The notes beneath the pieces are model-generated. The model worked only from the letters and a program-made list of their open reading frames with translations, ran no database searches and was not told the DNA's origin. DNA of 64,000 bases, taken from assembly GCA_963969365.1 (NCBI GenBank), contig OZ017756.1, positions 186,001 through 250,000 on the forward strand, read 5' to 3'. Of the stretch, positions 1 through 64,000 are shown one piece after another; the stretch's first letter is position 1, and every line of letters begins with the position of its first letter. The position numbers were made by a program, and so were the translations under genes. The DNA is from Asterochloris sp. CNOR1 (Eukaryota > Chlorophyta > Trebouxiophyceae > Trebouxiales > Trebouxiaceae).

Positions 1-53
1 CATTGCTGCTGGACTAGGCACTCCGCATAAGCTCCACACCCACCGCTATGCAG

Positions 54-3000
54 AGCAGCAAGACGCTGAGGCTGCTGGCGGAGTCTGTCGCTCTCTGGGG
101 GGCCTTGCTGCTGCTTCTGGACCAGCACCTGCCAGCAGCGGCGCGTGAGAGGGCGGTGGTGGCTCACGTGCGTGCAGTGTTGGCCTCCACCACTGAAGGG
201 TCAGATGCAGCGCAGCGGGTGGAGCGCGGCCTGCCGGGGGTGCTGGCCCTCATACGGGGCTTGCCGGGGCAGGGAGCAAAAGGCGGTGCCTCAGCAGGTA
301 AGTGATCTGCATGTCAGCTGGCAGCCTGCGCTGATGATGAGAGGGCGCTGCCTCAGGAGGTCAGCCGATTTGCTGACCAGCATCTGCATGTCAGCTGGCA
401 GCCTGCGCTGATGATGAGAGGGCGCTGCCTCAGGAGGTCAGCCGATATGCTGACCAGCATCTGCATGTCAGCTGGCAGCCTGCGATGATGATGAGGAGGC
501 GCTGCCTCAGGAGGTCAGCCGGTGTGCTGACCAGCATCTGTATGTCAGCTGGCAGCCTGCACAGATGATGAGAGGGTGCTGCCTCAGGAGGTCAGCTGAT
601 AGCATCTGCTTGTCACCTGGCAGCCTTGCAGATGACGAGAGGGCCTCAGGGCACACAGAGCTGCTCCGGCTGTTTCTGCCTGGCCCACGCTGGGGTGCGA
701 CCAGGCCAAAACGGCTCCATCAGACAAGAGAGCCTTCCCTGCTTTCAGGCCAGGCAGACCAGCTGTTTGCGCGCGCTTCTCTGCCGCGCCCTGTCCTCCT
801 GGCCGTCCTGCGCGGCCTGGCAGCGTCAGAGGCCCCGCAGCCGGCCCACCCAAACCCCCTAAACCCTAGCGCCCCACAGGGAGCGCTGGACATGGCGGAG
901 GCCGCCCTGCAGGGGCAGGTGCACCTGCTGCTGCACTTTGTGCCTGAGGTGCTGCACCGGGACCAGCAGCTTATGCAGGTGGGAGCCATGTGCAGTGTCA
1001 CTGACACTGAATCCCTCAAGCAACCAGCTATACACGCGTATTGAGGCAGCCTGCTTGCTGGAAACATTGATGAGGCTGAGCTGGTCCCCATGTATGAGAG
1101 TTATTGGCCCTGAGCACATGATGGCCCCCTGCCACACCATCCCGCTGATGCGAAGACATCTTTCAAACTGCATGTTCTGTTGCAGGACATAGCTGGCCGC
1201 TTCTTTGCCAGCAGCTGGGTGGTCGAGTGGGCCCCTGGGCACTATGCAGATGTGGCACACTCCTGGGAAAGCTATCGTGCTGCCCGCGGAGCCATGGCAG
1301 CCGTTCAAAGTGTCCAGCAGGTGAGGTTTAGTGTGTCCACTCTTCTCAGCTGCTCACTTGTGCTGGCCAAGTCTCCATGCTGGGCTCAACAGGTCCCGAG
1401 CCGTGGCAGCACCGCAGGGTGTCCAGCAGGTCAATCATTGTGTGACCAGCGTGTCACACGGGTTGATAGGCTTGGATGATTACCTGAGCCTGATTAGCTG
1501 AGCTTGGAGTGTAGTTTCAGGAGACAGAGCTCTTGGTATATGGCTGGCCAAGACTGCTTCTGGTCTGCTGCTGTTGGCGCAGCAGGATCAATATGCCCCT
1601 CTTGCAGGGCACCTCTCCTGCAGCTCGCTGCTGTAGCGTGGCGGCTGCAGCTTCAGGACCCTTCCCTGCCACCCTATTATAGCCGACAGCACAATGCAGC
1701 AGCTGCGCAGCTGATCTTCCCTTTTTGGCATGCATGATATTTCAGGACAAGCTGTGCTTATAGTGCCTTTTCGTCAGGCTTGCAAACATGCAGAGCTGTG
1801 TAGTGCTTGCTTAAAGTTCAGGCTTGCAGATAATGCAGATCTTTGTCAAACAGCACAGTTTTCGTTCTGCAGGCCAAGGATACAGCAGCCCGCCACATGA
1901 CCGAGCTGCGCCAGCTGCAGCAGCAGTGCCAGGCTCTGCTGCTGCATGAGAGCGCCTTGCAGGTGTGCTGACATGCAATCTTTCTGCCTCTTTCCCAATC
2001 TGACTGGATGCACTTTCTGTGAGGCAGTCATTTTCATTCCTCGCGCATGGTCAGTAAGCAGCAGCAGCATGGTCAGGCCCTGCTGCTGCACGTGAGCGCC
2101 TGCGAGTGTACACATTGTGCTGACTAAGCACCCCTTTCTTTTGCAAAGAACTAGGGTAGTGCAAGGCTTGGGTTGTAGACTTGCAGTTGGCCACTGCGCT
2201 GTCTGCTGCTGTCTAGTGGCCGCCAGCACAATGCAACAGGACGCCTTCATGTGCCTCATGCTGACACCTTGGCAGACCCTCATTTGTGATGTGCAGGGGC
2301 CAGCACTGCTGGCGCAGCTGCCAACCCTGCTGGACTGCCTCTCAGACTGCTGTGCCAGCCTGCGCTGGCTGCTGCTGCACGCTGGCAGCCAGCATGCCAA
2401 GCTGTGGCCTGCAGTGCGGGGCCAGATGGGAGACCTTAACAAAGCAGTCACCCTGCTGCCAAGTGTGGCCACCCTCAAGCAGCAGGTAGGTCAGTTTGTT
2501 GGCATGAGATGGTGAAGCATGTCCGCAAGCAAAGGCAACATCATCATGGCCGTGCTTCCCAGCTGGACCAGCCAGTGGGGATGCATGGAGATGCACAAGC
2601 CGCCTGAGCTGGACATTTTCTGCTTAAGTCAGGCCTGAACTCCTGAGCCAACCAGCGGCTTTTTTATCACTGAAAAGGGAAACAGGCGCAGGATCGTCCT
2701 ATCTGCATGTGAGCTGTGCTCTGCCGCGGCGGCCAGGGATCAAGTTGCTTGGTGCCCAAAACTTAGGGGCCATGGCTTGCGCGGTGCCTTATCCCTGGAG
2801 TGTGTGCAGTGCATTGCTGTGAATGTCACAGCAGTCTGCTGGCTTGCTGACCTCTTTCTGCAAGAGCTCTGAAGCCGCAGTCAAGGCTTACCTGGCAAAG
2901 CAAAGCGGGGGCCGTGCTTGCTTGCAGGCCACGCGTGCTCCTTGCAGATGTAAATGATGCTGACCAAGCACAGCAGAGCAGCCAGCTTGAACCCACGCAC

Positions 3001-6000: not shown

Positions 6001-9000
6001 AGCATTGCCTCCCATCATTGGTGAAGCACACGTACACCACTACACGGCAGCAGCATCTCTGAGAGGACTGGCCTGTCTAGCAGCAGACACCCATGCTGAT
6101 GAGCTGTACACCTGTGAAGCTTGAGCCATATTGGAACCTTCCGATCAATAGCCTGCAGGGCAGGAGGGACAGGCCAAAATTCTTTGAAGGGCAACACCAG
6201 AATGTTTGAGGAGGCCAAGCTGCGATTTACCCTTCATTCCATTTGTGCAGGCTGCCAGCGCACACGTGGTCGCATTGATGCTGCGCAGCGCCGACCTGGA
6301 GCTGGCCGCGAGCACTGCAGCCGAGCAGCACGTGAGGCTGAGCAGCCGCGAGGCACAGGCAGACCTGACGTGGCGCCTGGGACGCCTGTGCGCAGGAGTA
6401 CGCAGCTTCGACAGGTGGGCTTACAGGATGAGAAAATTGTCAAGTTTTGCGTCCAGCATGTGGCATGTGCAAGGTGACTGCTCTGTGAAACAAAGCGCGC
6501 TCACTCTGGCAGTCACAGGCACCGTTGGCTGTCAATCAGGCTTCATTCAAGATCAACCCGGTACAGTTTGCTGCAGGCAGGTGGCGGTCCCCTATGACCT
6601 GGACTCCACCGCCATCCTGGCTGACACAGTCAGGGAGCGCCTGAGGCGGCAAGTGGCCACGCTGTGGGTGGACAACCTGGTCTTTGCCCACAAGGGGCCT
6701 CCGCTGCAGCTGCAGTGGCAAGACTCTGAGGCTGGGCTGGCCGGCGTGTTCCGCTGCGGCGCAGCAGCGCCGGCACACATGTCTGACAGGTCAGCTGCCT
6801 CCTGTTGTTGTGTCAACAAACAACAACAAGACATGCAAGCAGGCTGGCAGCTGGCACCCTCCACTCACAGGTATGGCAGGTGAGTTGTTTCTGACTGGTG
6901 GTAAGACAGTGTCACTTCACACAGAGAGGCTCCCATGATGAGCTGGCAGCTGCCCTTTTATGCAGCCCACCAGCCTCACTCTGAATCCTAACCCTGTCTT
7001 ATCTGGCAGGTAGGTGGCCCCCAATGTTGTTAATGTTGTGCTAAGCCTGTTGCCCCATGAGGCCCGCAAACTGTCTAGGGATTGTACGTGGTTGTTATGG
7101 AGTGGTGTGCACTGTTCTGTGCATTGTATCTCGGCATGGCCTGAGAAGTTGAGCTGCCACCTCATACCATATGTCTGCCTGAGCTCTTCTTGCTTGCCCT
7201 GCAATGCTGGTGCATCCATGCAGTGGCAGGGGAGAGACAAGTGCCAAGCTGGAAGCAGCTGCCCCAGTCGAGTCACAAGTGTGCCAGCGCCCTTCTTGCA
7301 GGGGCGAGACGACCACCAAGCTGCAGCAGCTCGCCTCCCGCGGGCAGGCCCTGCGCAGGACGCTGCTGCGTCTGCAGCCCCAGGTCAAGCTGCCCCTGCA
7401 CCAGTTCTGGCATGCGGCAGTTGGCGCCACTGTTGCAGCCAGCCTCGAGCAAGACCTGACACGTGTCATGTCGCTTCCATCCTGGAAGCAGTCCAAAGCT
7501 GGTGCTGGGCAGCATGCGGATGCCGTCTCTGACTCAGATCTGGCCTCCGCAGATGTCTCAGGGCACTCGGCAGATGCCAATGTGGGACGGCCCTCAGACG
7601 CTGCAGGGCACCTGTCAGAAGCCGAGCCAGGGCAGCCTGCAGAGGCTCCAGAACCCAAGCCAGAAGCTGGAACAGCCAGGCAAGTCACCGCTGTGCAGGC
7701 CGGAGGTGTGGATGCGAGCGTGCAGCTATCAGCTGCTGAGGCTGGCGTGGGTGGCTCACCAGCCCCTTCTGAAGCAGCAGAGAAGCAATATGAGGGGCTA
7801 CCAGCACCACCTGCTGCTGACGCTGCTTTGCCTGTCAGTAAAGTTTCGTCGGCAGTGGCTGGGACAGCAGAGCAGGGTGAGGGCCATGCAGACGCCGGGG
7901 CAGCCAGCCCTGCCGCGGCTGAGGCACAGAGTGCTGATGCTGCAGCCAGGCAGGCTCTGCATGCGCACAGGAAGCAGGCAGGCCAGGAGGCAGGCGCCCA
8001 GGTGGTTGGCACTGCCCCTGGCGGATCACTGCCGCCACAGGGCACCAACAAACCTCATTCTGAGACAATACACGATGTACCTGCCGGGGCAGGGGGCTCT
8101 GCCGAAGCAGCGGAAGCAGCAGCAGGCTTGCCTGCCTCCACCAGCAGCAACACCAGCCCAGCCAGCAGCCCAGAGCTTGCTGTGCAGGCACCCAGCACGC
8201 CTGGCAGCAGTGGGGAGGACACCCCAGCAGCAGAGCCCACCACTCCACAGCACACGCAAATTCCCTCTGACAGCCTGGGGGCCCAGATGCTTCAATCGCC
8301 CGCACTGGCCGGTGCCAGTCCCGCAAGCCGTCAGGCCAGCTTCAGCGGAGGCATTGGTCAAGACAAGCCCCCAGAGGCAGCTGGTCAGCAGGCACTGCCG
8401 CGTGGAGCGCACGCAGGGGAGGCACCTTGCGGGCCTATGGGATGCCTGCTTCAGGTGAGGTGGGGCAATGCCCTGGGTGCTTGGCCAAGCGTACGCAAAC
8501 CTGCGTGCGACCTGGTGAGGTAGCCACAGCACTCTGCGCAGGCAGTGCACTGAATGCCAGTTCCAGGTGAGGCAGGGCAGTGCCAGTCTTGCTTGGGCAA
8601 GCGTCCGCAAAACTGTGTGCACAATGCCTGGGCCACATTGGTCAGCTGCAGCAATCCCCTCTTGCTGCACAGCAGCAGCGCCGCGCATGGCAAGAGATTG
8701 TGCTGCAGCTGACTACTGCAGGGGAGGGAGCATGCGGCCTTGAGGGGTGCCTGCCAGAAAGACTACAGAACATCTCAGGCAGGGCTGAATCATCCCTCTT
8801 GGCAAAGCTTCAGCGCTGCTGGCGCCTGCCTTAAGCAGTGAGCAACTCTGTCTGGGCACAGATTTCAGGAAGCCTGTGTGCTGCTTTGCGCAGGAGGTGC
8901 TGCCGCTCCAGAGCCTGTTGCCACGGTGTCACAATTGTCATGCAGGTCAGGGAGCCTTCAAGGAAGTGGCATGCACTGTTTCCCTCTTGGGTGCTGTCCC

Positions 9001-12000
9001 ACTCACATGCACTGCGCTGTGCAGGAGCTGCTGCGGCTGACCAGTCCCTGGCAGACCACCTTCAGTGCATCTGGGGCAAGCTGGCGCGATGGGGAGGGTC
9101 AGGCAACCCTAGCTCCTTGGCACTTGCAGGCAAGAAAGTGCCTATCAGAGTGCTCCGTGCATGTAGCTTTGTGTGGATGACTCAGCTGTTGTTGGAAAGC
9201 CTGGATCCCAGGCACTGCGTCCAGGACGGTGCCAACTGCAAGTTATATGGGCAGTGATGAGCAGGGCCCCCAGACACTTGCAAGCAGGCCAGCACTATGT
9301 GCAGCAGACATGCTGCAGTGGCTGGCAGTTTGGCAAGCTATGCTGGGCCGGCACCTGCAGGCAACGTCCGTCTGTGACAACACCGGCTGCAGCATGCGGG
9401 CTCAACGGTTGAGCAGTCCTGGTGGCTGGGCGGCCCCACGCCAGCCATAATCACCTGCATGCACGATGCATGAGAGGGGTAGTTGCAATGCTCATCCCTC
9501 GATGGTGGCAGGCAACGTCTGCTGCTGCTAAGTCTGCACAAGAAATTGGCTGATGGACTTTTGGACTGTTGCTGTTCCCTGATGTGAGGCACATGTATCA
9601 TGGAGAGTTGTCAGGTGTTGTCGGGTCCCTGTTTTGCTTGCAGACCTGACATGAATGCGGTGCGACCTTTGCAGCCATGCCTGAACTGCAGCACAAGGAA
9701 ACACTTCGTGCCTCACCCATGAGATCTATCTGGAGAAACCATTTACCTGCAGGAGGTGGGGAGAGCGGTGGGCAGGGAGGGTCTGCAGGCACTGGAGAGG
9801 CTGCTGCAGGCCAGGGCTGCCTGGGGGGTCATGCAGCTGCTGCAGGCGGTGCGCAGGCTGATCCCGCCAGGTGGGTTTTGTGCTTACATCATCTGAAGCA
9901 GGCACCCCAATGGAGGCTGGCTGTCCCTGTTCTGCAGCTGCCGCAGGCCCTGCACAGGCTGGCGCTGCCAGCTGATGTCATCCACACTCTGCTACCCTTG
10001 TCAAGGCGCATCAGAGCGCAGCTGCTGGGGGACTGCACAGCCTTTGCATTGAGTAGGCTCCTGCTGCTGCTGCAGGGCAGTTGGTGCAGTGGCAGGCCTT
10101 GTTTGCCAGCCCACAGCCCAGCCCCGGGAGCTACCATTCAGCTCTGAGGAAAGGCAGCGCTCTGTGGCCAGGACTCGCTTTCGCCCTGGTGGGGTTGGGG
10201 CAGACTCAGATGCTGCGCCAATGTATCGCCGATGAGCTGCAGAGTGCCACACGGTGAGTCTGTGCCTGGACTGCTCCTTTGGCTACTCAACTGATACTGT
10301 GCTAAACTAATAGTACTGCAATTGAAATTTGCCCTGTTATGTTTGGGGCAGACTGACCTGCTGCGGCCATGCACTGCTGATGAGCTGCAGAGCGCCATGC
10401 AGTGCCTGCAGGTCTGGGTTACGTCATCTTGTCCATCACAGAGGCACCGCCCAGGACCTCTGCACCTGCCTGCAGGAGTGTATCATCCCCACAGCTGTGG
10501 GCTGCACTGGAGGCACTCAGCCCCACGACTGCAAAAGCAGGCAAAGACAGGGCACAGGCTGCTGGAGGGACCTCCCAGCTGCCGCAGGCCCAGCAGTCCG
10601 CAACGATGTCACCAGCTGGCGCAGCCTTGAAGAGTGCCTGTGTCAGCACTGGCCTCTTCCATCCGCTGCAGGTGAGTGCGCCAGCAGCATGCACCGCTGC
10701 AGGTTCTGTGCTGCCTGCCTCGTGACAGGGGGCATCAGGCTCTTGGAAAGAATGGAAGTCGGAAGCAGATCTTTTGAGTCTGTCAGGTCTGAAGAAAACC
10801 AGATGGCTGACAAATTGCTTGCAGTCAGGTTTGGGATGCTGCCCAGTGCAGAACACCAAGCTTGCATGGCTATACCAGAATCGACCAGAATTGGAGAGAG
10901 CGAGTTGGCTGTGATAGAGCTGGTGGCAATGCACATGTGATGGCACCTTGCGTGGGTGAGGCACCCATGTGTGCTGCAGTGATGGCTGCCAGCCTGAGCT
11001 GTAGCAGCACATTGTACCGCTCTCAGCATCAGCAGCACTCTGAAATGCAAGCGCTGCAGCCTGTTGGAGTTCAAGGTGCTTGCATGGCTGCGCATATTGT
11101 TTGAGAGCATGACTCGCACTCTGCAGGAATGTTGGAGGGCAGCTGGCCTTCCTCTCGGCTTGTTAGCCGCCCTTCAGCTAACCCTTCTGGTCGCAGGCCA
11201 GCCTTGCAGACAACACACTGCACTGCCAAACCAACAGACAAACTCTCCGTGATGCAGCATGCTTACAAAACCCTCCCTCGGACCCCTCTGCCCTCCATGT
11301 TGCAGGAGCGCTTTGAGCTGCTCTGGTCTGACGGGCTTTCCAAGCCCTGCATGCCTTTCCGTTGACTGCTGGGACACACTTTTTAGCAGCTGAATCAACA
11401 TGCTCTCTGTGATTCAGCATGCTGAGTTAAGACTACCCTCTGCCTTGCAGGAGTGCTTTGAGGGGGTCACCCCGCCAGCCGGCCTGGCTGCAGCCCTCCT
11501 GCTGACACTGCAGCGGGAGATGCCAGCCTTCAAGTGGGACCGTGCTGGCAGTTGCCTGAGGCTGCCTGTGGGCAGGGCAGGCGCAGACCCGGCTGCCCTG
11601 CTTGTGGGGGTGCAGACCGTGCTGCAGCAGGACGCGCCGGGCATGCTGCAGGTGAGCCTTTGGTGGGCTCCTGAACGGTGGTGTGAAGCTAAGTGAAGGC
11701 TGTGGCCCGCCGTGTGCGCCTCGCATGTAGGCAGAACGGGTGCTGACCCAAGCGCGCTGCTTGTGGGGCAACTGCAGCAGACAGCGTGAGGCAGGCTGCT
11801 GGTGACACTCTGCGACTCATCCGAGCTCACTCACTGCTTGAGGCTACTTTAAGAGCTTGTGAGCCAGCACTCTGCATCTTGAGGGTCTCCACTGACCTGC
11901 TGCACTGCAACAGCAGAGCGCAGCAGCGGCAGGTCATGAATCTGAAATTCTGCTTGCGCAGGAGCTGCTGCATAGTGCAGGCACCCTGACGCTGTTTGCT

Positions 12001-12715: not shown

Positions 12716-12824
12716 TGCAGCTGGGGATGCTGCCTATGATGCACACATGACCTCTCCCACATGCCCCCTGAAGGCAGCCAGCCAGACGTTTGCATTTGCC
12801 CTCAATCTCAAGCACGAGTGATTA

Positions 12825-17412: not shown

Positions 17413-20400
17413 TCACTCGGCCTCTTCTGCTGGAGCCTCCTCCTTGACGGGTTCAGGCTTGACTGGCAGCTCTGCCGACTCCACCAGGGCCTGGTCATAC
17501 TCCTTTGCCACAGGTGGGGGTGGCAGGGGCACGAACGGCGCTGTCTTGGCAGCCCAGCCCACATATATGTTGGTGAAGGCAGACCCAGACCCCACTGCAA
17601 CTGCGCCAGGCCACAAGTTGCTGCGCACGCCGGCCACCTGCACGCGAAGGGCGCACCTAAGTTGTTGGCCACAGCAGCTGGGCCGCCTGATGCCTATACA
17701 CCTTTGGCTTTGTAGCAGGGATCACTTTGGTGGGCACAGCTGCCTGCACAAGCCGCCAGATGGGCTGCAGTGCTGCTGCACTCCTTCGAGGCTGGCTGTA
17801 CTTGGAAGTAACAAGCTGCCACTGGGCTGTGCGGGCCTCTATCTCTGGCAGCTTCAAAAGCTGCCTGCATGAGGTGGCCTGGGTGAGCTGTGAAGTACAC
17901 TCTTGCTGATAAATGCTGATCTTATGGCCTGTGGTGGGCAATTTATGTCCCGGCTCAAATGGACCAGGCCAGATGGAGCTGGTCCTCTTGTGGCCATTCC
18001 TGGTGGAGTAGGCGCTGTCAGGTTCATCGAGCCACAAACCTGCGCAGCTGGCTCCTGACATGCTGATGCTGCAGCTCTGGAGCTGAAGCCAGTGGTGTCC
18101 CGCCCCCCTACCTAGGGCAGATGCAGCCCCACAGCCCACGCAACCCTGCCTTCCTGCTGAGATTGCTGCTGCTGTGTGAGAGTGCTGGCTGCTTACAGGT
18201 GGCCCTCACAACTGCATGCAAATGCTGCACCAGTGCTGCAAATGAGCCTGCAGCCCCGCTTCCACCAGCCTATGTCGCATGCATGGTGTATCTTCACGCT
18301 GGTGTTGTTGTAGCTGCACAGAGGGGTTCGCACCATGCAGCAACTCCGCCTACGACTGCAAGCATGCAGCCCCATGCCCTGCAACCGCAGGCCCATACCT
18401 AGGAACTGCAGCCCCGTTCACCTGGTTCTTCACGCTGCTGTTGCTGCTGCTGAACAGAGGGGTCCAGGCCTCCGCGCCCCCCACTTCAACATCCTTCTCC
18501 ACTGTGCTCAGGGGCTCAGGCCCCTGCTCCGCCTCCTCCTCTGTCGGCTCTGGAGCATCCTGCCCCTCTTCGGGCTCCTTTGCAAACACGACACATCTCC
18601 CTGAAGAGAGTGGGGTACATGTCAGTTCAGTCCCCTTCGCAAACACAACAAATCTCCCTGGAGAGAGAGGCATACATGTCAGCTCCGTCTCCTATACAGC
18701 AACAACACACCCTCCTGCAGAGAGAGGCGTACATGTCACTTCAGCCAGCGCTAGGTGGCAAAGCTTTCATGTCAGGCGGTGGGACGCAGAGATGCTCCTT
18801 CTGGGGCTGTTGCAAATTGCACAGCCACTGGCACCCCCACAAGGAAGATATCAGCATGGACAGGATCATTTGTGTGCATCAGGCTCTGTCCTGCAGCCAT
18901 GGCACGCAGCCAGGTGCAGTCATGTTCTGCCTGCTTCACTGGCTGATGCTGCCAGGGCACTGCGCCCCAGAGTAAGGCTACATTTGCCAGATCAGCGCAG
19001 ATGCAGTCTTACACCAGGACAGCACATTTGCAAAGCTCAACAGATGAGCATGCGAAGCACCGCTGCACCGGCGCGCACCATCGGCATCACAGCGCTGCAC
19101 CATCTGGTGGCCAGAGCGTGCTGAACGCTGCAGAGGTGGAAAGGTGCCAGCTACAGTAACATCTGTAGAATTTGGTGCTGAGATGTTTTCACTCATGAAC
19201 TGCAGGCTGGCGATCTTGCAGCAATTGCACCGAGCCCGGCGCACCCTGCTTCTTGACGTGGGGGTATCTGTGTGCCCATGCGGCTGCTGTGCCCAGCTCT
19301 GTGGCAGCCACCGGTGTGTACTCCTCTGCCTTGTCCAGGCCTCCAGACTGCAGGCACAACGCTGACGTCAAACAGATGCCCTGACAACAAGGCAATGCTG
19401 GCAGCGGCAGCACAGAGCAATCTGCCCCATGCCTGGCCAGCTACAGGCGCCCAGGCTGCCAACCAGCTGGTGTCTGGCGTCAGTTGCAGGCTGCTGTATG
19501 GCGTCATGCCCCCGTGCCATAATGTGTGGCTGTAGATTAGCAGCACATGCAAAACTCTTTGGCCCAAGTCAGGCCTCCACATTGTGGGCCCAGAAATGTA
19601 GATGTAAACACAGCAGTTGCACCAAGGACATCCAGTAGAGGCAACCAGGGAGCAGCTGCACAGGCCAGTCCGCCTGCCCCATCTGCAGAAGGATGCCAGC
19701 TGGTGCAGCCCCTGCAGGTGACTGCAGACAGCATACCTTCAGGCCAGGTTGCTGCGGGCTGAGCGCGCGTGCAGCAGACTAGCAATTTCGAGCATGTTGG
19801 CGATGTGCTGGTCACTGTCTGGCAAGCAGAGGGCAGTCAGACGCAGCTCTACGACCTCATGAGCTGCCAGAGGAGATATGAGACTTGTGACCACACAGTG
19901 CCCACACTTGAGCCTGGCAACAAGACTGTGAATTACACGCCAGGCACAGTCCAGCTCCCCACAGCAGCCCATGTAGCCCCAAGAGCAGGCACACCTGACT
20001 ACCTCGTTTGGCAGCCCAAAGTAGAATGCCCAGAACCCATCTGCAAGACGGCACCATGCACGCATGTTGCGTAGCACTGGCCACATTGCCCAGAGCAGCT
20101 TACCTCGTTGGCTACAAAGTAGCCTGCTGGGGACAGGACTGTGGTGGCAGCTATCCTGGCCAACTGCGCTCGCAGGAAGCTGGCCTCATTGCCTGGGAAG
20201 GGAGGATAGGCTGACACCTGCATGCATCAAGATATCAGTCAGCGCCCCCTGCCTGCAAATGTTTCTGCAATGCCACAGGTACGAGCTCTGTCGGCGCAAG
20301 CCAGTCCACACCCCAGGCTGGCCACGCTGCATCAAGCAGAGTAACACTGCTGATGCAAGGTGGCGGTGTGTGGTCGCCCTGAGCTGGATGCAGAAGGGGC

Positions 20401-23400: not shown

Positions 23401-23656
23401 GGCAAGAGGCATGTCCACTTGCGCTGCCAACATCTGGCCAAGCATCCTGTGGGTCTGGCAGTGGGTTGCTCAGCATCTGGGGATCCTGAGGGGTTGCACC
23501 ACATGGAGGTGCCCGTGAGCTCTTTCATGCCAATTGGCCAGCAGTGGCACTTGCCTTGCCAACAAGTTCTGTGAGGTGGTCATAGACTGACCCTCCAGAA
23601 ACCTCATTGCTCTTTTGCAGCAGGGCGACAGCCTGGTTGACGTCCAGGCTGTTCAT
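17413..23656 (-). CDS. RSP4/6: Radial spoke head protein RSP4/RSP6 family
   Basis: RSP4 and RSP6 form the radial spoke head that signals between the central pair and dyneins in motile flagella. Exons: 23656-23555, 23350-23240, one unresolved exon, 22569-22506, 21918-21766, 21340-21265, 21058-20892, 20217-20104, 19818-19737, 18600-18422, 17637-17413. The N-terminus MNSLDVNQAVALLQKS is followed by YDHLTELV, as in the family. Family hallmarks appear in order: VRFFGKVLGIYADYYVFE, then YTYFVCNSLG and AARLIKKYLTGKLDA, then AYPPFPGNEASFLRAQLARI, then SNLWPGAVAVGSGSAFTNIY. The acidic tail ends EEAPAEEAE. The resolved exons give about 424 residues against about 460 for the Chlamydomonas proteins. The gap between 23240 and 22569 needs an exon of length 2 mod 3. 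Intron 1 has a GC donor (AAG then GCAAGT). I cannot tell RSP4 from RSP6. Confidence 0.95.
18601..18735. repeat. Splice-acceptor echoes in the RSP4/6 intron before exon 18600-18422
   Basis: Read on the minus strand, the true acceptor is CTCTTCAG then GGAGATGTGTCGTGTTTGC. About 58 bp upstream is CTCTCCAG then GGAGATTTGTTGTGTTTGC. Another 57 bp upstream is CTCTGCAG then GAGGGTGTGTTGTTGC. The nearest echo keeps the reading frame FVVFAKG, parallel to CVVFAKE in the real exon. Confidence 0.92.
20720..20892. repeat. About 47-bp tandem repeat next to an RSP4/6 donor
   Basis: Four units built on GCTGCTGCTTGGCACAG and CTGCTCAACCAATCACTG run from 20720 up to the donor at 20892 (minus-strand ACG then GTGAGC). 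The unit next to the exon starts inside the donor region, so the array abuts the splice site directly. Confidence 0.88.
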
Positions 23657-45500: not shown

Positions 45501-46034
45501 CTCCATCTGCTGGGGAAGCATATGGCGCTCGTGATGGCCCTGCATATGATGACCGCCACCATTGCTGCCTTGTTGCTTGGTCTCCAAAGCTGCATTTGTC
45601 TGGGTGCAAATCGGGTGCCATCACAGCTGCTGTGTGGAGTTCCAGGTGTGTACACTCCTCGGAGCTGTGTGGGGCTCCAGCTGCTCGGGCAGACTGTGGC
45701 GCTTGGGGTGGCCCTGTTCATGGTCACTGTCGCTAGTTGAGTGGCCATGCAGCCCCCCTGCCACAAGCAGATATGTGGACAGACCAGAATCAAGGCTATT
45801 GCTGCTGTGCAGGTTGCTAATTCCATCAGTGCCATTGGAGGTGGTCTGGCCTTTGATGTTGGGCACCTCAGCATTCGCCTGGTCTGCGCGATGATGGCGG
45901 TCCTGACCGGCGGCGTTGCAGCGGTATGGTGCTATTATGCCAGCTACATCTGGCGCCAGGACAGGTCTGGCCAGACAGAGAAGCTGCCTCAGACTCTTGA
46001 CCGTGTTGAGAGCCAGCTCGCTGCCCTTTCTTGA
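39583..46034 (+). CDS. Major facilitator superfamily transporter, copy B
   Basis: Exons: 39583-39690, 39883-40028, 40365-40457, 40656-40749, 41276-41440, 41983-42402, 42715-42881, 42997-43164, 43516-43585, 44170-44300, 44781-44843, 45250-45409, 45813-46034. The product is 668 residues. All 13 exons match copy A in order and phase. Nine have identical length and the rest differ by whole codons or by shifts inside the central loop. Conserved blocks include TLDTLAWSVTLAFGASLGGA and VSKLGTTTCFLIDSATYVVA. The central loop (EDEDEDTDQEGAHLLAPEP and later) is the most changed part, and the C-terminal tail is shorter. The donor after 43164 is GC, as in copy A. Both copies appear intact. Confidence 0.9.
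45390..45740. repeat. Splice-donor echoes after MFS-B exon 12
   Basis: Real junction: GCGCTGGAGATGGCCCTGTT, then CACG and GTGACTGCC (donor after 45409). Echoes: GCGCTCGTGATGGCCCTGCA near 45525 and GCGCTTGGGGTGGCCCTGTT near 45700. Positions relative to the exon are close to those in copy A. Confidence 0.85.
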
Positions 46035-51854: not shown

Positions 51855-54138
51855 ATGGCCCTGGTGCCCTTCAGGGTGTTGGGAGCTGCAGCAGATCAGG
51901 ACATAGAGCAACGGATGCTCCAGTTTGGCGGTGAGGGCTCCTTGATGACTGTGCACCACATGGTGTCAGATAGCCACTTCTGCTGCGCAGCCATGCACTC
52001 CACTGCATGGCCTCAGCTGAGGCCAGGGACTTTCAAAGCTCAGCAAAAGGACCAAATGAGGTTTCAGACTGCACCGTCAAGGACCTGCCTGGCAGTTCAC
52101 TCCAGCCTTGTGGCAGGTCAAGACAGCCCTGTAAAGCCTTTGCTGCACTCATTCAGCATCCTTTGCAACCCCGGACAGCTGCGGGAAGCCTTTGCTGCAC
52201 TGTGCAGGAATGGCCATCACAGTGCGCCAGATCCCCAAGCACAGCGGCAGCGTGGCCCGAGCAGCGCTGCCTCCACAGGCAGGTGACTGGGGCTGCCCTT
52301 GCAGGAACAGGACTGACTTAGCACGTCTTTTGGAAATTGGTGACCACAACTGCCCTTGCATGCACAGAATGCCCTTGTCTGAGCACTTGCAGGCAGATCA
52401 CTTCAGCTGCCTTTGCAGGCCAAGCTTGACCTTGCTGCAGAGCCCACGCATTTTGTGCTGATACAGTGCTGGGTCAACGAACCAATGTAAGCCCCTGCAA
52501 AAGCCAACACACCCAAGCCCTGACCTGCTGCAAGGCAAGTAGAGGCAATACAGAGACTGCCTTGGTACAGGCGATGACGACAGCAGCAAGCGCCCATCAG
52601 AAGACCTGTCCAACGTCGGGCTCGTGGTCTGGCAGTCAGCCTTCATGCTGGCTGAGTTCCTGTTGAGGGCACCGCCATTTGGACAGTGGCACGACGTGAG
52701 GGTTGTCGACCTCGGCTCTGGTACAGGTGCGCTGCATGTCTGTTTGCTGACGTGCTGCGTCACCTGTGTTGCCTCATCTTTTGAACCGTGACGCGACGTG
52801 GGTTTCATGAACCATGGCTTTGAGGCAGGTGCATTACATGTCTGTTTCGTGGTCTGCTGCAAAGTCTGAGTGGCAGTGGCGCAAGGTGAGGACCAAGGGG
52901 GCGCTGTGTTTGCCTGCCCCCTGCACCAAGCTCTCCACATCACTCTCACCTGTGCTGAAGGAAGCTATAGCAATCGCAGCCTGCACAGCTGCTTGCTGCA
53001 GAGTGGTGACACTGCGCTGGCCAGGAGTTGCAGTGGGCTGGACCTCGGTCAAATCAACACTGGGCTGCATCTGCGCTGCCACCTTTACAATGCTACCTGA
53101 GCCCTTGCTACAGGGGTGGTGGGCAATGCGCTGGCCGGGGCAAGCACAGGACCGCAGCTTGGCCAGATAAGCCTTGAGCCGCAGCTGGGAGCTTGCCTCG
53201 GTGGTCTTACATGCTGCCATGCTGCAGGGGTGGTGGGCATTGTGCTGGCCAAGGCTGGCGCAGATGTGGTGTTGGCAGACCTGCCCCACATCACGCCCCT
53301 GACTCAGGCAAATGTGGATGCCAACTGCCAGAAGCCATATCAAAGGACCCAGGCCAGTGTACCTTCCTGCTGATGCAGGGCTCTCGCCATGCCTGGATCT
53401 TAAGATGCCTGCACTCGCCAGCATATGCTGTGCATGTGCCTCCCCCGTCATGCGGCATGTAGACATGCTGGTGGTTAGGCGCTGCTGAGCTTCCCGCAAA
53501 GCTGAAACTACATTGAGGTTGGGCTCTGTGACTAACTGTGCTTCGCACTTTACTGACTTAAATCCCTGAGAGCTTATGTCAAGGCTGTTGCTTACGTTGC
53601 AGGTGGTGCAGCACGCCTGGGGGGAAGACGTGGGTGTGCTGGGCAAACAAAAGCCAGATATCATTGCTGGCGCAGGTAATGTTCTCTGAATGAGCCAAAA
53701 GCAGCCTGTTGGTGTCGACTGCTATTTGCCTATTTTTGACACTTTTCCCCTCTTTAGACCTGCTTTATGCGGAGACCTCATTTCCTTCACTCGTCAGGAC
53801 CCTCAGTGATCTCAGCGCTCCCCACACCATCACTTTCCTGGCATTCAAGCATCGAGGTGAGAATGTGTCTCAACTCGTGTTACTTGTTGTCATTGGTCAC
53901 TTTGAAGGGAACAAGTTTTCACCAGTGGTGCCTCTTCAGGACAGCCCCTGTGTTGAAGTGCACATGCTGCTCAATGCACTCAGCAGTTGTCCTTTCTGAC
54001 ACAGGCAGGGGAGAGACTTCCTTTCCACAGATGCTGGCAGATGCCGGCTTTGCAGCGGACATTGTCCCTGATCATGAGCTCCATGAGGAGTATCAAGGGA
54101 CTGACTACTGCCTGCTGAGAGCTTGCAAACTAAGCTAA
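51855..54138 (+). CDS. METTL21-like (Methyltransf_16) methyltransferase, second gene
   Basis: Exons: 51855-51930, 52208-52282, 52571-52726, 53228-53358, 53603-53675, 53758-53856, 54005-54138. Phases fit and give 247 residues. The N-terminus MALVPFRVLGAAADQDIEQR is followed by GMAITVRQIPKHSG. Motif I is built across an intron: VRVVDLGSGT with GVVGIVLAKAGADVV. Then come VLADLPHITPLTQANVDANC and the signature PDIIAGADLLYAE. This is a SAM-dependent seven-strand methyltransferase of the METTL21 type, substrate unknown. It differs in exon structure and sequence from the one at 28640-31967, so they are not a recent duplicate pair. The donor after exon 4 (AGT then GTACCT) is the weakest splice site. 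A TGTAA lies 92 bp after the stop. Confidence 0.88.
52680..52865. repeat. Splice-donor echo after exon 52571-52726
   Basis: The junction region GGTACAG/GTGCGCTGCATGTCTGT is repeated about 105 bp downstream as GAGGCAG/GTGCATTACATGTCTGT. The preceding exon text ACGACGTGAGGGTT recurs as GCGACGTGGGTTTC. Confidence 0.85.
52990..53260. repeat. Triple splice-acceptor echo before exon 53228-53358
   Basis: Real: CTGCAG then GGGTGGTGGGCATTGTGCTG at 53228. Echo 1: CTACAG then GGGTGGTGGGCAATGCGCTG at 53114. Echo 2: CTGCAG then AGTGGTGACACTGCGCTGG at 53002. Spacing is 114 and 112 bp. Echo 1 is close enough to the real site to be used by mistake. Confidence 0.93.
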
Positions 54139-54229
54139 ATCTTTATTGTTGCCTGCTGGATGTTGCTCAGATATAGACCCCAGTCCACAATAGCAGGAAC
54201 AGTGTGCCCAGCCCCTGGAGAGCAGAGCA

Positions 54230-54234
54230 TGTAA
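54230..54234 (+). terminator. TGTAA poly(A)-type signal of the second methyltransferase
   Basis: TGTAA lies 92 bp after the stop at 54138. It is only 9 bp from the stop codon of TMEM258 on the other strand, so the two transcripts very likely overlap at their 3' ends. Confidence 0.6.
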
Positions 54235-54242
54235 GCTTGAGC

Positions 54243-54665
54243 TCACACAGAGCTGTTGTCTCTGTCTTGAGGCTCACCATGAGAGTGCCAAAGCAAGTAC
54301 TGTATGATGAAGCTCACTAGTGAGATGGAAGAGATGCCGCCGAGGAGGGCTTCTTCTGAGAGCTTGCGGGTGTGCCTGGTCTTTGTGACCTCATATCTGC
54401 AACAGCATGGGCAGGCGTGATGCAGGGGCAGCGGTTGCTGCAGAGCCACCAGGGGAGGGGCCACCCACATGAAGAATCCTACTGTGCTGAGGATGCCAAA
54501 CAACAGCAAAACAGTGGCAAGGGTGGGGTAAAGGCTTTGTGGCACCTGCAGGTCAGAACAACAGCATCCTTGGCACAGGCTGAGACAAGGCATGATGTGT
54601 GTCTGCCTGAGCTAGTAGAAAAGTGAGCTCACTGGAGAATATAGTGGAATTGTCGGTGCCTGCAT
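54243..54665 (-). CDS. TMEM258: Oligosaccharyltransferase subunit TMEM258/OST5
   Basis: Small two-helix subunit of the ER oligosaccharyltransferase, which transfers N-glycans to nascent proteins. Exons 54665-54633, 54545-54469 and 54396-54243 join in phase to 87 residues. The N-terminus MQAPTIPLYSP leads to VPQSLYPTLATVLLLFGILS, then FFIYEVTKTRHTRKLSEEAL, then the second helix SLVSFIIQYLLW. The FFIYE join is made across the 72-bp intron and matches the FF(I/V)YE motif of the family. The tail HSHGEPQDRDNSSV is a little longer than in animals, where about 79 residues is normal. An in-frame ATG at 54683 would add six residues. Confidence 0.93.
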
Positions 54666-54683
54666 CGCAGTATGCACCAACAT

Positions 54684-54871
54684 GTTAGCTCTAGGTAGGC
54701 AGAAGTATACACCACACGGCATCAGCATCTGATCACCATGCTTTTCACAGATCGATCCTGCCTTGTAGTATAGCTGAAGGAGTTCGCAGAAGTGGGATCC
54801 ACAGTGCCCTCCTCGTGTCGCGCCAACACAATCTCTGGAGCTTCACAGCTGCGGCATTGCTTTAAAGCAGC
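54684..54871. promoter_or_regulatory. Divergent promoter, TMEM258 and WDR92
   Basis: 188 bp (206 if TMEM258 starts at 54665) separate the opposite start codons. No obvious TATA or repeat. Confidence 0.5.
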
Positions 54872-57800
54872 ATGATCGATGCAGGAGACCAGCCGCAGAT
54901 CCTTGAGCACCTCTGCAAAAGTTTGGTGGTGACAATCTATGACACCAGGCAGGCCCCTTTCCTGCATCCTCCACACTGTCGCTTGCAATTTTTTGTAACC
55001 ATGCTGACACCGCCTGTGCTGCCTGCAGATGGGTGCCAAGCAGCGCCAGGTTTGTGGCGCTGGGCTCACACGCTCGGAACACAGGGTGCCTGCAGGTGAT
55101 CCCCTATTGCTTTCACAAAATGAGTGGGACTCTCAGCTGCTTGATGGCAACGCATTGCAGAACCCTCTCATAGCTGTCCATGTGCCAGTTGCTGTGTTGG
55201 GGATCTGCTTGGCTTGCCAGTTGTGGCAGCTCCAGGGTACCAGGGCTCACCAGTCCGCTACTGCTGATGGTATCGCTTCCTGTCACTGGAGCAAACTGAT
55301 GTGCAGGCATGACAGCTGGACCCCCTGCTGCATTGCTGCTCTGTGACGGGTTCATGGCAGTGAGCTTCAGCGGTCATTAGGACTGAAGTCTTGCCCAACA
55401 TGCAGCTCCCAATGCGCCCTCACAACTCACTGCTGCACTGCTGCAGATGTGGCAGCTCCAGCTTGAGAAGTCAAGCAAGGGACCCCCACACAAATGCAGA
55501 GCACTCAATGCTGCATACTGCAGGCTGACTCCACGAAAAGCAACCTGACTTGGCGCCCCAATGGCTGCTGCAGGGAAAAGTCCTGTGCTGCCTCTGGTGT
55601 GGCAACTTCAAGGCAGTAGCCCCAAGCTGGCAAGGAGTGTGAAGGCGTAACACCCAAGTGCACACTCACAAGCTGTCACTGCCATGCTGCAGATGCAACT
55701 TCTTCAAGGCAGTCACAATTGCATAACAATCTGCTGTGGGCATGGCTGCTGGGTGATGCAGTCACTCAGAGAATGCTCCAGAGTCAGCGTCCCCACAACA
55801 GCTGCTGACTGCTCACTTGTGCGGCTGCAGGTGTGGCAGCTTCAAGAAAACGAACTCAAGCTGGCGGCCGAGAGGGAGTACTCCCATCCCCTGAAGTGCG
55901 GCACTTTTGGAGCCTCCAGCCTTAGCCAGCGACACCTGGCGACGGGCAACTTTGAGGGGAAACTGCAGATCTTTGACCTGGAGCGCTTGGCGGTGCCCAC
56001 CTTCAGCACGCAGGCACATGCCGGCATCATCAACCAGATTGATGGTGCTGGGGGGAAGGTGAGGCAAGGCAGGTCAGCCCAGTCTGGTGGCAGCTCTGTC
56101 TGCAGTTTCCAGTGGAAAGACCTGAACGGACTTTGTCTGGCAGCACACACCTTCACAGGGGCGCCATCAACCAAACTGATGGTGCGGTAGGCAGATCAGG
56201 CAGGATAGCTTTGCCAGGCATGCCCTCACGTCCAATGCGGCCTGCCGCTGACACAGATCATCCAGGCAGAAGTCAGCGCAGAGCAGCAACAGCAGCCTCT
56301 GCAGGCAGCCAGGCACATGGCCGCCGATGAGCATCAGCCAAAACGTAACAGAAGCGACATTTACAGGCACTGCAGGTGCAAGGATGCACCTCTCAGCCAT
56401 GCAGCCTGCTTGGAAGGTCCTGCCGACCCTGCCAGCCTCTCTGAGTAGTCAGCTCAGTGCTGCAGCCAATTTTGACAGAAGGGAGGCTGGTGGGCGTCGG
56501 GGCTGCTGCAGCATACCGGAAAATCCTTGTTTCTGTATATATGCTGGCATGAACATTTCGTCATCTGCCTGACAGCAGGCATGAGCCAGATAGACAAGTG
56601 CCGCAGCAGCCTGAGCCATTGGCTGCTTCGGCTAGCTGCTAGCCAGGCAGTGCCCCCTGCAGGCAGTGTTGCCCGCATGCAGATGTCTGTGGGCCGCCCG
56701 AGGTGGCCGCCCTTGCTGCACAACTGCACTGGACGCTGCCTGCAGGCAGAGGTCTGTGGGCCGCCAGAGGTGGCCACCTGCGGCAGGGACGGCGCAGTGC
56801 GCGTCTGGGATGTGCGACAGCAGGATGCGCCTGTGGCAGCCTTCGAGCCAGCACCTGGCGAAGAGGTGGGGTGTGCTCCAGCATGTACACATATGGACTG
56901 GTGGCGGCCGCCTGGCCATCCTCTTATGAAGTTACGGGGATCTCCCAACTGCTGCTTGGGCTCACATGGTGTGGCGACCTTCGAGCCAGCGCCTGGGCAA
57001 AGAGGTGGGGCTCAGACTCCTGCTGCTGCATGTGCTTATGGGCAAAGATCGATCCTCTCCGCTGCCGCCAGCTCACACCTTTCAGATATAGTCTCCTTGG
57101 CACCTGTAACGGCAAGGTGGGGCTCATCCTGCTGCTTCGTGCGCTCCCTTGTTGTGGCAGTCTGTCAGCCAGCCTCCAACAAAACGGTGGGGTGGAGTCC
57201 TCCCTGCTGGTGGTGCCTTGCAGGAGCAGTGGCCGCTGATTGTTGCAACCTGCCTGTCTTGCAGATACAGGACTATTTGGTGGCCGTAGACGCCTTTGAA
57301 CCATGTGGCAGTACAGGTGCTGCACTGCACTCGAATCGAGGCTGCCTTGCAGGCGTGGCGAAAGGCTGGCTTGATCTCAACATCAGCTTTGTTGAGTTCA
57401 GATTATGTGTCTCAGACCGGCATGAGCTAACCTGCAGGACCAGGCCTGCTGGGCAGCAGTCGTGCGCAACTCATCAACACCAATGCCACCTGCACACCAC
57501 TGCACAGGAGCCTATGCTGCTCTGCATGTGCAAGCCGCTGGGCAGCGGCCATGGGCGACCCTTTCACTTAAGCCGCCTGCATTACATCGCACAGGAAGTC
57601 ACGCTGGATTGCAGGTGAGGGACTGCTGGGCGGTGGCCGTGGGCAACTCCTACAACGATGCTGAGCGCTGCGTGCTGGCAGGGTATGACAATGGGGATGT
57701 CAAGATGTTTGACCTGCGCACCAACACTGTGCGCTGGGAGGGCAACGTGCGCAACGGCGTGTGCGGAGTGCAGTTTGACAGGTGGGCAGAGCGCACTTGG

Positions 57801-59548
57801 GGCTCTGAGCAGGTCGTCACACAACTGCACAACTTGATAGACTTTCCAGTTCAGCCGATGGGCGAGGACAGGCAGGCAGAGCTGCATGTGGGCTGTGCCG
57901 AGGGCACTCACCTGGCTGCATGTCGCTGCAACAAGAGCACTGCCAGTGGACAGACCTGCATCTTGAAAGAGCAACGTGACCGCAGCGTCAGCCAGGTGCA
58001 CTACGACGGGTGGGTGGACTTGGCGAATTGTGGGCTGCAGCTGGTGTGATGCTCTGTGTGACAGGCCGCAATGCGTCTGGGTGGGAGGCCTGTGGCCGAC
58101 AGGGCATCGTCTGCGGCTTGCACAGTGACGACCTGACACCTGTTGTGGGCAAACACGAGAGCCTTCATGTCTTCCAGCAGGTTGCCTGCTGGGCCAGCGC
58201 TACGCTGTACAGGGGAACGGCATTGCTGTCAGGGTGCAGGTTTGTCACCCTGCACTATCGTGGCTTGCCCATTGCATTGGTGCCGCTGCGTGCCCTGTGC
58301 ACTGCAGTGTCTTGTTCTCTGAGGTGCACTGCAACTGCCTCTGATGGTCCAGCCGGCAGTTGCAGCGTCTTAAATTCTGAGGTGCACTGCAACTGCCTCG
58401 AATGGTCCAGCTGGCCGCTCGCTTGCTGCCTGTTGAGCATCAAAAGGTTGTACCTGGAACTGCTGCAATGCTGTGACACATGCTTCTGTCACTTGTCCCC
58501 TGCAGGCCAGACATCCAGATGAACAAGTTCGTGGTGACCTGCCTGGAGTCACAGTTCCATGTGTTTGATGCGCGGACGCAGCACCCCAAGCAGGGCTTTG
58601 CCAGCGTGGCGGAGAAGGTCCCACATGGGGCCACCCTCTGGCGCTCTCAGGTGGGAGCTGCTCAGCATCCATCCAGAGCTGGGCTCAAGGCGGCCTCACT
58701 GCATGTGGCAGTCTGGGGATTGCTCCGCCTGCTGCGGCAGCTCGCCTATGAAGCGTCTGCAGCATCAGTTCTGCAGCATCGCCAAGAATGTGCCGCGCAG
58801 GCCTCTCTCTGGTGCGTTTTGTCAGATGCCAGGAGTGCACAGTTGCCAACTTCAATTGAACACAGCTGTGAATACTGGAGGCCTTGACCTGCCAGGCTGT
58901 CGGCCCTGAACTACGCCAGCACCCTTGTGCTGGTGAATGAAGCAGCCATCAGTATAGCTGCCTGCCTGTGCAGCATCTGCCCCAGAATTGGGACATCTGC
59001 ATGATCACTGGTCTGTGCCAGAGTTTTAAGCACGTCTCCAAGGCTCCTTTGCCTGCTATGCAGCATCTGCTCTGCCAAGGACCCTGCTTCATCTGCTGCA
59101 ACAGACAGCATGCATTGCTTAGTTTGTCTTCTGCCCACCTACGCCTGCAGCATCTGTCTGGGAAGGGCTGTGCAAGCCACTCAATCTCTCCTGTCTGCTA
59201 TGCAGCTCCTTCTTGCCTGGCACTGCCCTTTGGCTGAGGCAAATCGCCAAGATGCTGCTGCCTGCCCTGCAGCATCTGCCCCAGAACCGGGAAGTCTGCA
59301 TGATCACAGCTGGCGATGGCCGCATCAGCTTGTACAGATACAAGTACCCCGACCAACGCAAAGTCAAAGACAGCAAAGGAGTTGAGATGGGGGTGGCAGG
59401 GACCATGCACCTCAAGGCAGAGCGTGAGCTCAGCACGCAGCCAGTGGTGGCTTTTGATTGGTCACCTGACAAGGAGGGGCTGTTCTGCACGGGCTCCTTT
59501 GACCAGTGCGTACGCGTTGGCTTTGTGACCAAATTGAAAACCATCTGA
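54872..59548 (+). CDS. WDR92: WDR92 / DNAAF10, dynein axonemal assembly factor
   Basis: WD-repeat cofactor (Monad) that works with the R2TP chaperone machinery to preassemble axonemal dynein arms in the cytoplasm. Exons: 54872-54948, 55029-55095, 55831-56058, 56746-56865, 57615-57781, 58506-58650, 59273-59548. Phases fit and give 359 residues against 357 in human. The start [14 protein letters not shown] aligns with the human N-terminus. Family blocks: [115 protein letters not shown], and the end [17 protein letters not shown]. Intron 1 has a GC donor (CCAG then GCAGGC). The gene is complete and looks functional. Confidence 0.97.
56670..57015. repeat. Echoes on both sides of WDR92 exon 56746-56865
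   Basis: Acceptor side: TCTGTGGGCCGCCAGAGGTG in the exon is preceded 63 bp upstream by TCTGTGGGCCGCCCGAGGTG. Donor side: CTTCGAGCCAGCACCTGGCG then AAGAG/GTGGGG recurs 139 bp downstream as CTTCGAGCCAGCGCCTGGGC then AAAGAG/GTGGGG (junction at 57004/57005). One exon therefore has copies of both edges. Confidence 0.9.
58960..59300. repeat. Chain of acceptor echoes before the last WDR92 exon
   Basis: Real: CTGCAG then CATCTGCCCCAGAACCGGGA at 59273. Echoes: GTGCAG then CATCTGCCCCAGAATTGGGA at 58974 (nearly perfect, including CATCTGCATGATCAC), then shorter ones at 59064, 59151 and 59206. Spacing is 90, 87, 55 and 67 bp. The best copy is the farthest, so the order of decay is not simply by distance. 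Confidence 0.92.
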
Positions 59549-59706
59549 AGTCCTGTTTGTGATCACTTCAAGCGCCCTGAGTGGCTCTGCCTCAAGATTG
59601 ATCAATTTGAACTTTCAGGTTGCTTTATACAAAACAAGTAGAGGTTTTTTCAGGATATCAAGAGCCACTGTGGCTCAGCACACACTGCTGGTCTGAGGGC
59701 AGCAGA

Positions 59707-62700: not shown

Positions 62701-63107
62701 AAATGCTTGCCTCTCATGTCAGCTACCATACCAGCGCAAAATGCACATACCTGCGCCCCTCAGGCTACCCCTCAGGCTCCTGCCCTGAGATCGGCACGAC
62801 TAGAAGAGTTGGCAGCAATAAGAAACATGCTCACGCAGAGGCTGACGGTAGCTACAGGGCTGCCCACTCGACTCGATTGCCAGAGCCAAACTCTGGCAGC
62901 CGCTTCAAAGCATGCCGATGCGTTTGCTGAGGGAAAGTAACTGCCTTACGCAGGGGCCGCGCCGCCACTGTGAGTCCCAGGGCTGCCCTTTCAGGTTCCT
63001 CCGCCAGAGCAAGCTTGAAGATGGATGGCAGGACACGGGCGACCACCAGGGCCGTGCACCAAGCCTCAAAACGGCTGGCTTCTGCCATGCAACCATAGGC
63101 AGCGTCC
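59707..63107 (-). CDS. RSPH14: Armadillo radial-spoke protein, RSPH14 (RSP8/RSP14) type, 5'-partial
   Basis: Armadillo-repeat protein of the radial spoke. Exons: 63107-62950, 62174-62068, 61500-61433, 61004-60893, 60411-60292, 59826-59707, joined in phase to about 228 C-terminal residues. Segments align in order with human RSPH14 as I recall it: RVLPSIFKLALAEEPERAAL, DVNAVLAITPLLSGQSSV joined to AAACLLAALCTKPF, then VPVLLGQLGRG and AAAEALMAITVAVEGKQAV, then LDVEAPSLRLPLVELISNVA, and the last helix LQNSLAQAVRQLGFQSLPFE. Each block has the helix pattern of an armadillo repeat. A short exon before the last one may be missing. N-terminal exons lie right of 63107, perhaps beyond the window. Which Chlamydomonas spoke protein it matches (RSP8 or RSP14) is not decided. 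Confidence 0.85.
60050..60170. repeat. Decayed copy of an RSPH14-like exon
   Basis: On the minus strand this reads LRLPPLKLVRRVAELSL, a degraded copy of LRLPLVELISNVAELPA in the real exon 60411-60292, about 235 bp further into the intron. The copy still includes the exon end but no good donor. Confidence 0.8.
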
Positions 63108-64000
63108 CTACAGCGCAGCAGAATCAGTGATGAATGAGCGGCACTGGGTGTTGGCAGGTGCTCACACTGCAGTGACACACGCTGTCCAGCTTTGACAAAC
63201 CTGCCAAAATGCTGCACATGCTGTGGGCCGCATGTGATGCCCAGTTCTGTGGTGTGTCGTAAATGGATGGCAGGCAGCATGTCCTGTAGGACATCAGGCC
63301 CGACAGAGCCATGCACTGCACTCTGGCAGCAAACCCCGGCTGGCCATCCTCGACTACTTCGGTGCACCTCACCTGATGGGAGGCAGCATATCCTGCAGCA
63401 GGACTTGCACTCCCACTCCCACGCTGAAGCAGAGGTGGGCACAACAGCAGTGAAACCAGGAGGGCCAGTTTGTGCTGCAGCAGTGCCTCCAAAGCCATGA
63501 GAGCTGTGCACCTCATGCAGGGCATGCAGCAAATGCAGGGCATGCAGCAACCCCATGGCTGTGAACCTGTGCCACCTTTGGTGCGCCTGACCTGACAGCA
63601 GTCAGCTCGTCCTGCAGCAATGTCACCCAAGCCACAAGCCCGATGTCGTGCAGTCTGGGCAGCAACGCCCTGACATGAGATGCTTGCTACACAACCCTGA
63701 CGGCGCGTCACTTATGCTGCACCCACTGCTGCCAGAGCTGCCAACAGCCTGCATCCCGGAGCTTACATGCTGGCCTCACCTGACGGCCGCAGATTCTACT
63801 CAAGGTACGCCACGGAAGCTGCCGGCCTGGTACTTTGGGCAGCGAAAGCCCGACAGGAGATTCCTGCTACACCCATCTGACGGCAGGCAGCCAGTGTTGG
63901 CCCCAGTGCCGCCAGAGCTGCCAACAGGCTGCATCCTATGGCACCCTTGCTGCACCTCACCTGACAGCAGGCAGCTTGTTCGTGAGCAGACCCGCTAGGG
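63108..64000. repeat. Donor-echo region at the 5' side of the RSPH14-like gene
   Basis: On the minus strand, versions of GCTGCC followed by (C/G)(A/T)CAG and GTGAGG or GTCAGG occur near 63975, 63785, 63600 and 63370, with looser forms near 63870 and 63290. Versions of GCAGG(A/G)CATGCTGCC precede several of them. One of these is presumably the true donor of the exon before 63107, but I cannot tell which. No complete exon was fixed here. Confidence 0.6.

Follow-up and report, generated by a model that had tools for sequence, protein, structure and literature searches.

In the green alga Asterochloris sp. CNOR1, exon edges recur as local and mostly decayed copies, here termed echoes, inside the introns that adjoin them. 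The pattern is real and widespread, concerning about one intron in eight by a conservative test, and the echoes form one part of a wider load of local tandem duplications, some of which are wholly intronic. Small tandem duplications acted upon by selection are the likely explanation, in a manner that resembles the mirage process of amphioxus. The material comprised a window of 64,000 nucleotides (bases 186001-250000 of contig C11; G+C content about 58%), which is the whole stretch presented here, and 260 kb from 18 large contigs (each about 2-4.5 Mb) of the same genome (56.4 Mb in 21 contigs). Gene and repeat counts refer to this sample of 324 kb in total.

Recurrence of exon edges within introns

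A self-trained gene finder predicted 53 genes with 737 introns (median intron 242 nt), describing an intron-dense genome with the splice consensus CAG|GTRAG ... CTGCAG|G. Two gene models were checked by homology: RSP4/6 (PF04712, E 3.5e-91), whose product had Chlamydomonas RSP4 as best solved-structure match (7jtk, E 3e-110), and WDR92 (3i2n, E 7e-111). The majority of exons in these alignments agreed with the models, and some micro-exons look false.

For the per-intron echo test, 381 of the 737 introns were eligible (both edges at least 40 nt, intron at least 100 nt). An echo of either edge at p ≤ 0.01 was present in 51 of the 381 introns, against about 2% expected. The first-pass annotation had reported echoes on both strands, in unrelated genes and in nearly every well-resolved intron; the strands and the genes were confirmed, but the frequency was overstated, being 18/79 in the window and 33/302 in the other stretches, so that the window is about twice as rich as the rest.

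With the exon edges of other genes as control, the 50 nt that close the upstream exon recurred in its own intron in 44/461 cases, and the 50 nt that open the downstream exon did so in 46/457 (p ≤ 0.01, 1% expected). This is nine to ten times chance, and both 5' and 3' boundaries are involved. Exon interiors submitted to the same test gave 4/336, 5/200, 7/328 and 2/195 (1-2.5 times chance), and intron segments 21/485, 19/485, 18/385 and 12/385 (3-5 times chance). A sliding 40-nt probe, applied to introns of at least 260 nt and quoted here for exons of at least 100 nt, peaked at both junctions (25/199 and 26/199, 30/196 and 30/196; 13-15% of introns), compared with 61/1177 and 65/1154 (about 5%) within introns and 2-3% in the exon at 60-100 nt from the junction.

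At the level of single genes, WDR92 (introns 54231-59272) showed an echo at p ≤ 0.01 on 5 of 15 testable edges, with echoes at both ends of the introns 56059-56745 and 56866-57614, and RSP4/6 (introns 18069-23554) on 2 of 20. Eight regions that had been cited as clear cases were compared with themselves, including 150 bp on each side, and the self-similarity of each one exceeded that of all 60 size-matched random locus pairs. Strict best scores were 385 (298-600), 59 (8440-8625), 32 (11110-11480), 101 (18601-18735), 49 (52990-53260), 59 (56670-57015), 71 (58960-59300) and 62 (38570-38885), with a control maximum of 25-36 per region; region 11110-11480, with a 22-bp core, was the weakest. The echoes mapped in the window are listed below, with periods from Tandem Repeats Finder (TRF) where indicated.

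263-644, + strand: exon edge (donor 297/298) and about four copies of a 77-bp unit in the intron, the edge itself resembling the unit; TRF 305-601, period 77, 3.9 copies, 92%; 263-346 matches 555-644.
1289-1448, + strand: echo of the 5' edge 1289-1339 (donor 1320/1321), located at 1398-1448, GT retained; self-alignment.
1913-2109, + strand: echo of the 5' edge 1913-1966, located at 2057-2109, where an insertion has altered the donor region; self-alignment.
8442-8620, + strand: echo of the 5' edge 8442-8508 (donor 8454/8455), located at 8554-8620; self-alignment, strict score above controls.
10180-10404, + strand: 5' edge echo of 77 nt (74 exonic), copy 148 nt downstream, 77% identity; self-alignment.
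11238-11462, + strand: weak 3' edge echo (acceptor 11450), 66% over 80 nt; 22-nt core, score 32 against a control maximum of 26.
18569-18744, - strand: 57-bp unit in 3.1 copies (76% match) that crosses an exon edge of the radial spoke protein gene at 18600; tandem-repeat structure.
36364-36669, + strand: in MFS gene copy A, a 76-bp unit in about four copies (63% match) that extends over the acceptor of exon 36649-36718; copy B has a gap of 241 bp opposite 36330-36570; paralogue alignment.
38541-38888, + strand: two echoes of a 5' edge (donor 38590/38591), one at 38676-38734, where CT replaces GT, and one at 38833-38888; self-alignment and paralogue comparison.
45360-45733, + strand: two echoes of the equivalent paralogue edge (donor 45409/45410), one at 45503-45561, where AT replaces GT, and one at 45677-45733; self-alignment and paralogue comparison.
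52992-53263, + strand: 3' edge echoes with a period of about 112 (acceptor 53227/53228); self-alignment, strict score above controls.
56004-56215, + strand: WDR92 5' edge echo, 56004-56079 copied at 56141-56215; exon supported by the 3i2n alignment.
56670-56778, + strand: WDR92 3' edge echo, acceptor 56745/56746, copy 67 nt upstream; self-alignment, strict score.
56832-57194, + strand: chain of 5' edge echoes, in which 56832-56871 recurs at 56970-57010 (88%) and, more weakly, at 57153-57194, with GTGGGG in each; self-alignment.
57432-57661, + strand: 3' edge echoes of the exon starting at 57615; self-alignment.
58957-59307, + strand: echo of a 3' edge (acceptor 59272/59273), located 300 nt upstream, 88%; self-alignment, strict score above controls.

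An artefact of gene prediction, in which coding tandem repeats or pseudo-exons are mislabelled as introns, would produce a similar picture, and the finder did add likely false micro-exons in or beside echo copies of RSP4 (21425-21432 and 21645-21657, contradicted by the alignment) and overran one WDR92 donor (57782-57887, also contradicted by its alignment). This explanation is nevertheless improbable, and was rejected in its pure form: echoes occur at edges backed by the 3i2n alignment, exon-echo mismatches have weak codon periodicity (400/1607, 368/1592 and 443/1605), and the repeats themselves are independent of annotation.

Local tandem duplications and their gene specificity

Self-comparison with BLASTN missed short spacings (none below 75 bp, although TRF gave periods of 41-57), and Smith-Waterman alignment was used instead. 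Permissive scoring, from which 36 of 284 repeats were dropped as low-complexity, was judged to over-extend the alignments, and the class counts therefore rest on strict scoring, with short-period repeats dropped before counting and a search range of 25-400 bp spacing. A total of 164 strict local direct repeats was obtained, and none at that score in the cross-locus control. The spacing of about 50-180 bp first described was roughly right, with 26 repeats at 25-80 bp, 78 at 80-150 bp, which was the commonest class, 32 at 150-250 bp and 28 at 250-400 bp.

Repeats joining an exon edge and its intron numbered 74, a 1.8-fold excess over the 41.3 that random relocation predicts (sd 5.7); in 300 such trials the count never rose above 54. 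Pairs within the same intron were near expectation (44 against 47.5), and exon/exon repeats were depleted (3 against 13.5). The remaining repeats were 42 in other combinations and one touching intergenic sequence.

The youngest cases are head-to-tail units lying across a splice site, at L013 545-748 (68 bp in three copies, 94%), L008 6914-7157 (119 bp in two copies, 86%), L005 5648-5849 (106 bp in 1.9 copies, 77%) and window 18569-18744 (57 bp in 3.1 copies, 76%). Inspected by eye, the breakpoints of L008 6914-7157 have an imperfect 11-bp match in common, and the others share a few bases. A larger unit, of 387 bp in 2.1 copies (81%), lies at L012:6184-7000 and comprises an entire predicted exon together with adjacent intron sequence.

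Two tandem MFS transporter genes at window 33593-46034, of about 5.5 kb each, are 88% identical in exons and 74% in introns, and constitute a useful natural pair for dating intron changes. Their alignment contains 10 gaps of at least 20 bp, of which four resemble the flanking sequence (p 0.005-0.015 against 200 places; 20 comparisons). One of these falls in a run of 76-bp units at an acceptor, which copy A has and copy B lacks, so that unit number differs between the two genes, which are paralogues and not haplotypes. In another intron, both genes have two exon-edge echoes at corresponding positions and, as judged by eye, share a derived base there; these two echoes therefore appear to predate the gene duplication. 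In the first of them the donor GT reads CT in one gene and AT in its paralogue. In addition, a piece of about 110 bp of copy A also matches, inverted, a region of copy B (about 41718-41825).

Introners are sequences common to introns of different genes. Like the echoes they are repeated sequences within introns but, unlike them, they are shared between genes. The echoes were confirmed as gene-specific: the 77-bp array (301 bp) matched only its own place genome-wide, and a 9.2-kb echo-rich gene matched itself and one 51-nt stretch, in a search that evaluates top candidates alone and passes over very common words. Among the 737 introns, only 21 cross-gene pairs, involving 32 introns, were found, and no intron had more than three partners. 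These pairs are what a dispersed introner or transposon family, with copies matching exon edges by chance, would have in its favour; the small number of partners, and the absence of other genomic places for the array and the gene save that one stretch, make such a family the most improbable of the explanations considered, and an introner or transposon origin was rejected since the same unit was not found at unrelated genes. A few introns of different genes (L002, L007, L013 and L015) share similar sequence, perhaps a dispersed element.

Origin and decay of the copies

The explanation that we favour is as follows. The genome would undergo frequent small tandem duplications, mostly at 80-150 bp spacing. 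Wholly exonic ones would mostly be purged by selection, and those that are intronic or span an edge would be tolerated, because splicing at one copy could still restore the old message. Protein selection would then hold the exon-side copy near-constant while the intron-side copy decays; because the exon side is frozen in this way, edge duplications should remain detectable for a longer time than wholly intronic ones, by a factor of at most two, and the end state would be worn exon-edge echoes with degenerate splice sites. The excess of edge pairs over that of intron pairs among strict repeats, about 1.9-fold, fits the factor of at most 2 that we argue for one frozen copy.

A local, gene-specific duplication process that lengthens introns, as first proposed, is supported, but its being aimed at junctions is not. 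Young arrays lay on junctions in 8 of 19 cases, against 8.6 expected, and other cut-offs gave 11/19 against 9.5, 15/27 against 13.9 and 5/14 against 6.1. Splice-like motifs within introns had echo matches in 42/934 and 19/503 cases, compared with 93/2592 and 79/2135 at other intronic sites; duplication driven by such motifs was accordingly rejected, as they bring almost no extra echoes. The duplications are thus probably not junction-directed, which is the weakest point of the analysis.

Several results weigh against neutral duplication followed by unequal decay. The young-array test includes only 19 arrays at the main cut-off. Simulated neutral duplication, with an exon/intron rate ratio taken from a single paralogue pair and guessed duplication rates, gave an edge/intron ratio of about 1.0-1.5, whereas the probe profile gave about 2.9 after subtraction of a 1% background, and the fall-off into the exon was steeper in the data than in the simulations. 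Observed/expected values for edge pairs were 1.76, 1.80, 2.08 and 1.47 in the identity bins ≥0.90, 0.82-0.90, 0.76-0.82 and <0.76 (intron pairs: 1.18, 0.92, 0.61 and 1.17); on these small numbers the edge excess shows no clear age trend, although the frozen-copy account predicts growth. The copies had also been said each to span exon and intron sequence, which held for several young arrays; in a blind set chosen by exonic sequence alone, the intron side was similar in 9/27 (5') and 10/31 (3') echoes, against 112/148, 128/184, 132/186 and 140/208 simulated ones, a frequency about twice as high in the simulations. In the same set the donor GT was kept in 7/29 echoes, compared with 105/137 and 110/170 in simulations.

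Copies do leave extra splice-like sites, as anticipated, with GT or AG present in part of them. In alignments spanning the junction GT was kept in 20/32 and AG in 23/40; at other positions of these alignments GT and AG were kept in 120/287 and 222/403. The blind set gave the above value for GT and 13/28 for the acceptor AG, both lower than in the simulations. The two sets disagree, and neither retention nor removal of decoys is established.

Introns that erode faster than in the simulations, selection against functional decoys, or a genuine preference for junctions may account for this residue. Copying directed from the junction into the adjoining intron, through breakage linked to splicing or transcription or through motif-driven slippage at CAG|GT and CTGCAG, would agree with a probe peak centred on both edges at about 2.9 times the intron level, with an edge excess even among the pairs of highest identity (6 against 3.4 expected, of 19) and with the many copies that look exon-bounded. 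The ordinary behaviour of splice-like intronic motifs, the young arrays at their expected number and the near-random intron/intron pairs argue the other way, and we regard this possibility as unlikely. About equally doubtful, or slightly more so, is a mixed process in which, besides ordinary tandem duplication, exon-edge pieces ending at or just before the splice site are copied 80-150 nt into the intron by a splicing- or transcription-linked process and the duplicated donors are then selectively broken; if true, it would cover the sharp edge peak, the steep fall into the exon, the absence of a trend with age and the lost similarity on the intron side.

Intron creation offers a further alternative. 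Tandem-duplication intron gain has reportedly been treated by Hellsten 2011 and by Gao & Lynch 2009, as cited by others. Two papers describe intron gain by small internal tandem duplications that carry splice signals (PMC2891723, PMC4974935). As there described, it resembles the echoes in involving small duplications with splice signals, and differs in that it creates an intron of the size of the duplication, whereas echoes seem to lengthen existing introns. Under the Rogers model, by which exonic AGGT segments are duplicated and the echoes represent the two halves of a duplicated exon piece, exon-edge similarity inside introns and a strong CAG|G at both splice sites would be expected, as seen here, but the echo of the upstream exon should lie at the opposite end of the intron. 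The junction as mapped was within 5 nt of that end in only 2/39 (5') and 0/49 (3') cases, echoes ended within 25 nt of it in 3/39 and 5/44, and they rarely ran on into the other exon (0/31 and 2/30). Echo distance therefore did not equal intron length, and this origin is very improbable for the echoes in general, although a few introns, e.g., L008 7327-7701, may have been so created. Copies made from spliced RNA were rejected on the same rarity of echoes running into the other exon.

Relation to amphioxus mirages and significance

The first-pass annotation knew of no described name for such structures, which was incorrect: tandem duplications of exon/intron boundaries have been named mirages in amphioxus (lancelet). 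According to the available parts of the two reports, mirages affect 5' and 3' boundaries, have units of 10-160 bp and variable copy number, keep AG/GT in many but not all copies, and show unit numbers unstable between haplotypes without disturbance of regular splicing; they were described gene by gene and are young, with 81-100% identity in BflGb6 (PMC3087553, PMC3902484). Judged against those parts, the algal echoes are alike in unit size, in the involvement of both boundaries, in variable copy number, in partial AG/GT retention and, in the youngest cases, in head-to-tail units that include the boundary. They are unlike mirages in having been sampled across a genome, in being mostly decayed, the intron side of many older ones being unrecognisable, and in being known here from sequence alone. 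By title or abstract opening, no report of boundary repeats in green algae was found in one open-access library, among the matches listed.

The phenomenon thus looks like one already known in kind, in an apparently new lineage and at several stages of decay, and it would extend mirages, described for amphioxus only in the parts seen of those two reports, to an unrelated lineage. For practical annotation, gene finders may place false micro-exons in echoes. Comparison of the exon copy with its echo offers a way to date duplications, to gauge how far the spliceosome disregards duplicated sites and to test selection against decoys. In this alga, the building of intron length from small tandem duplications of nearby sequence can apparently be followed at several stages of decay, with the exon edge as a lasting reference copy.

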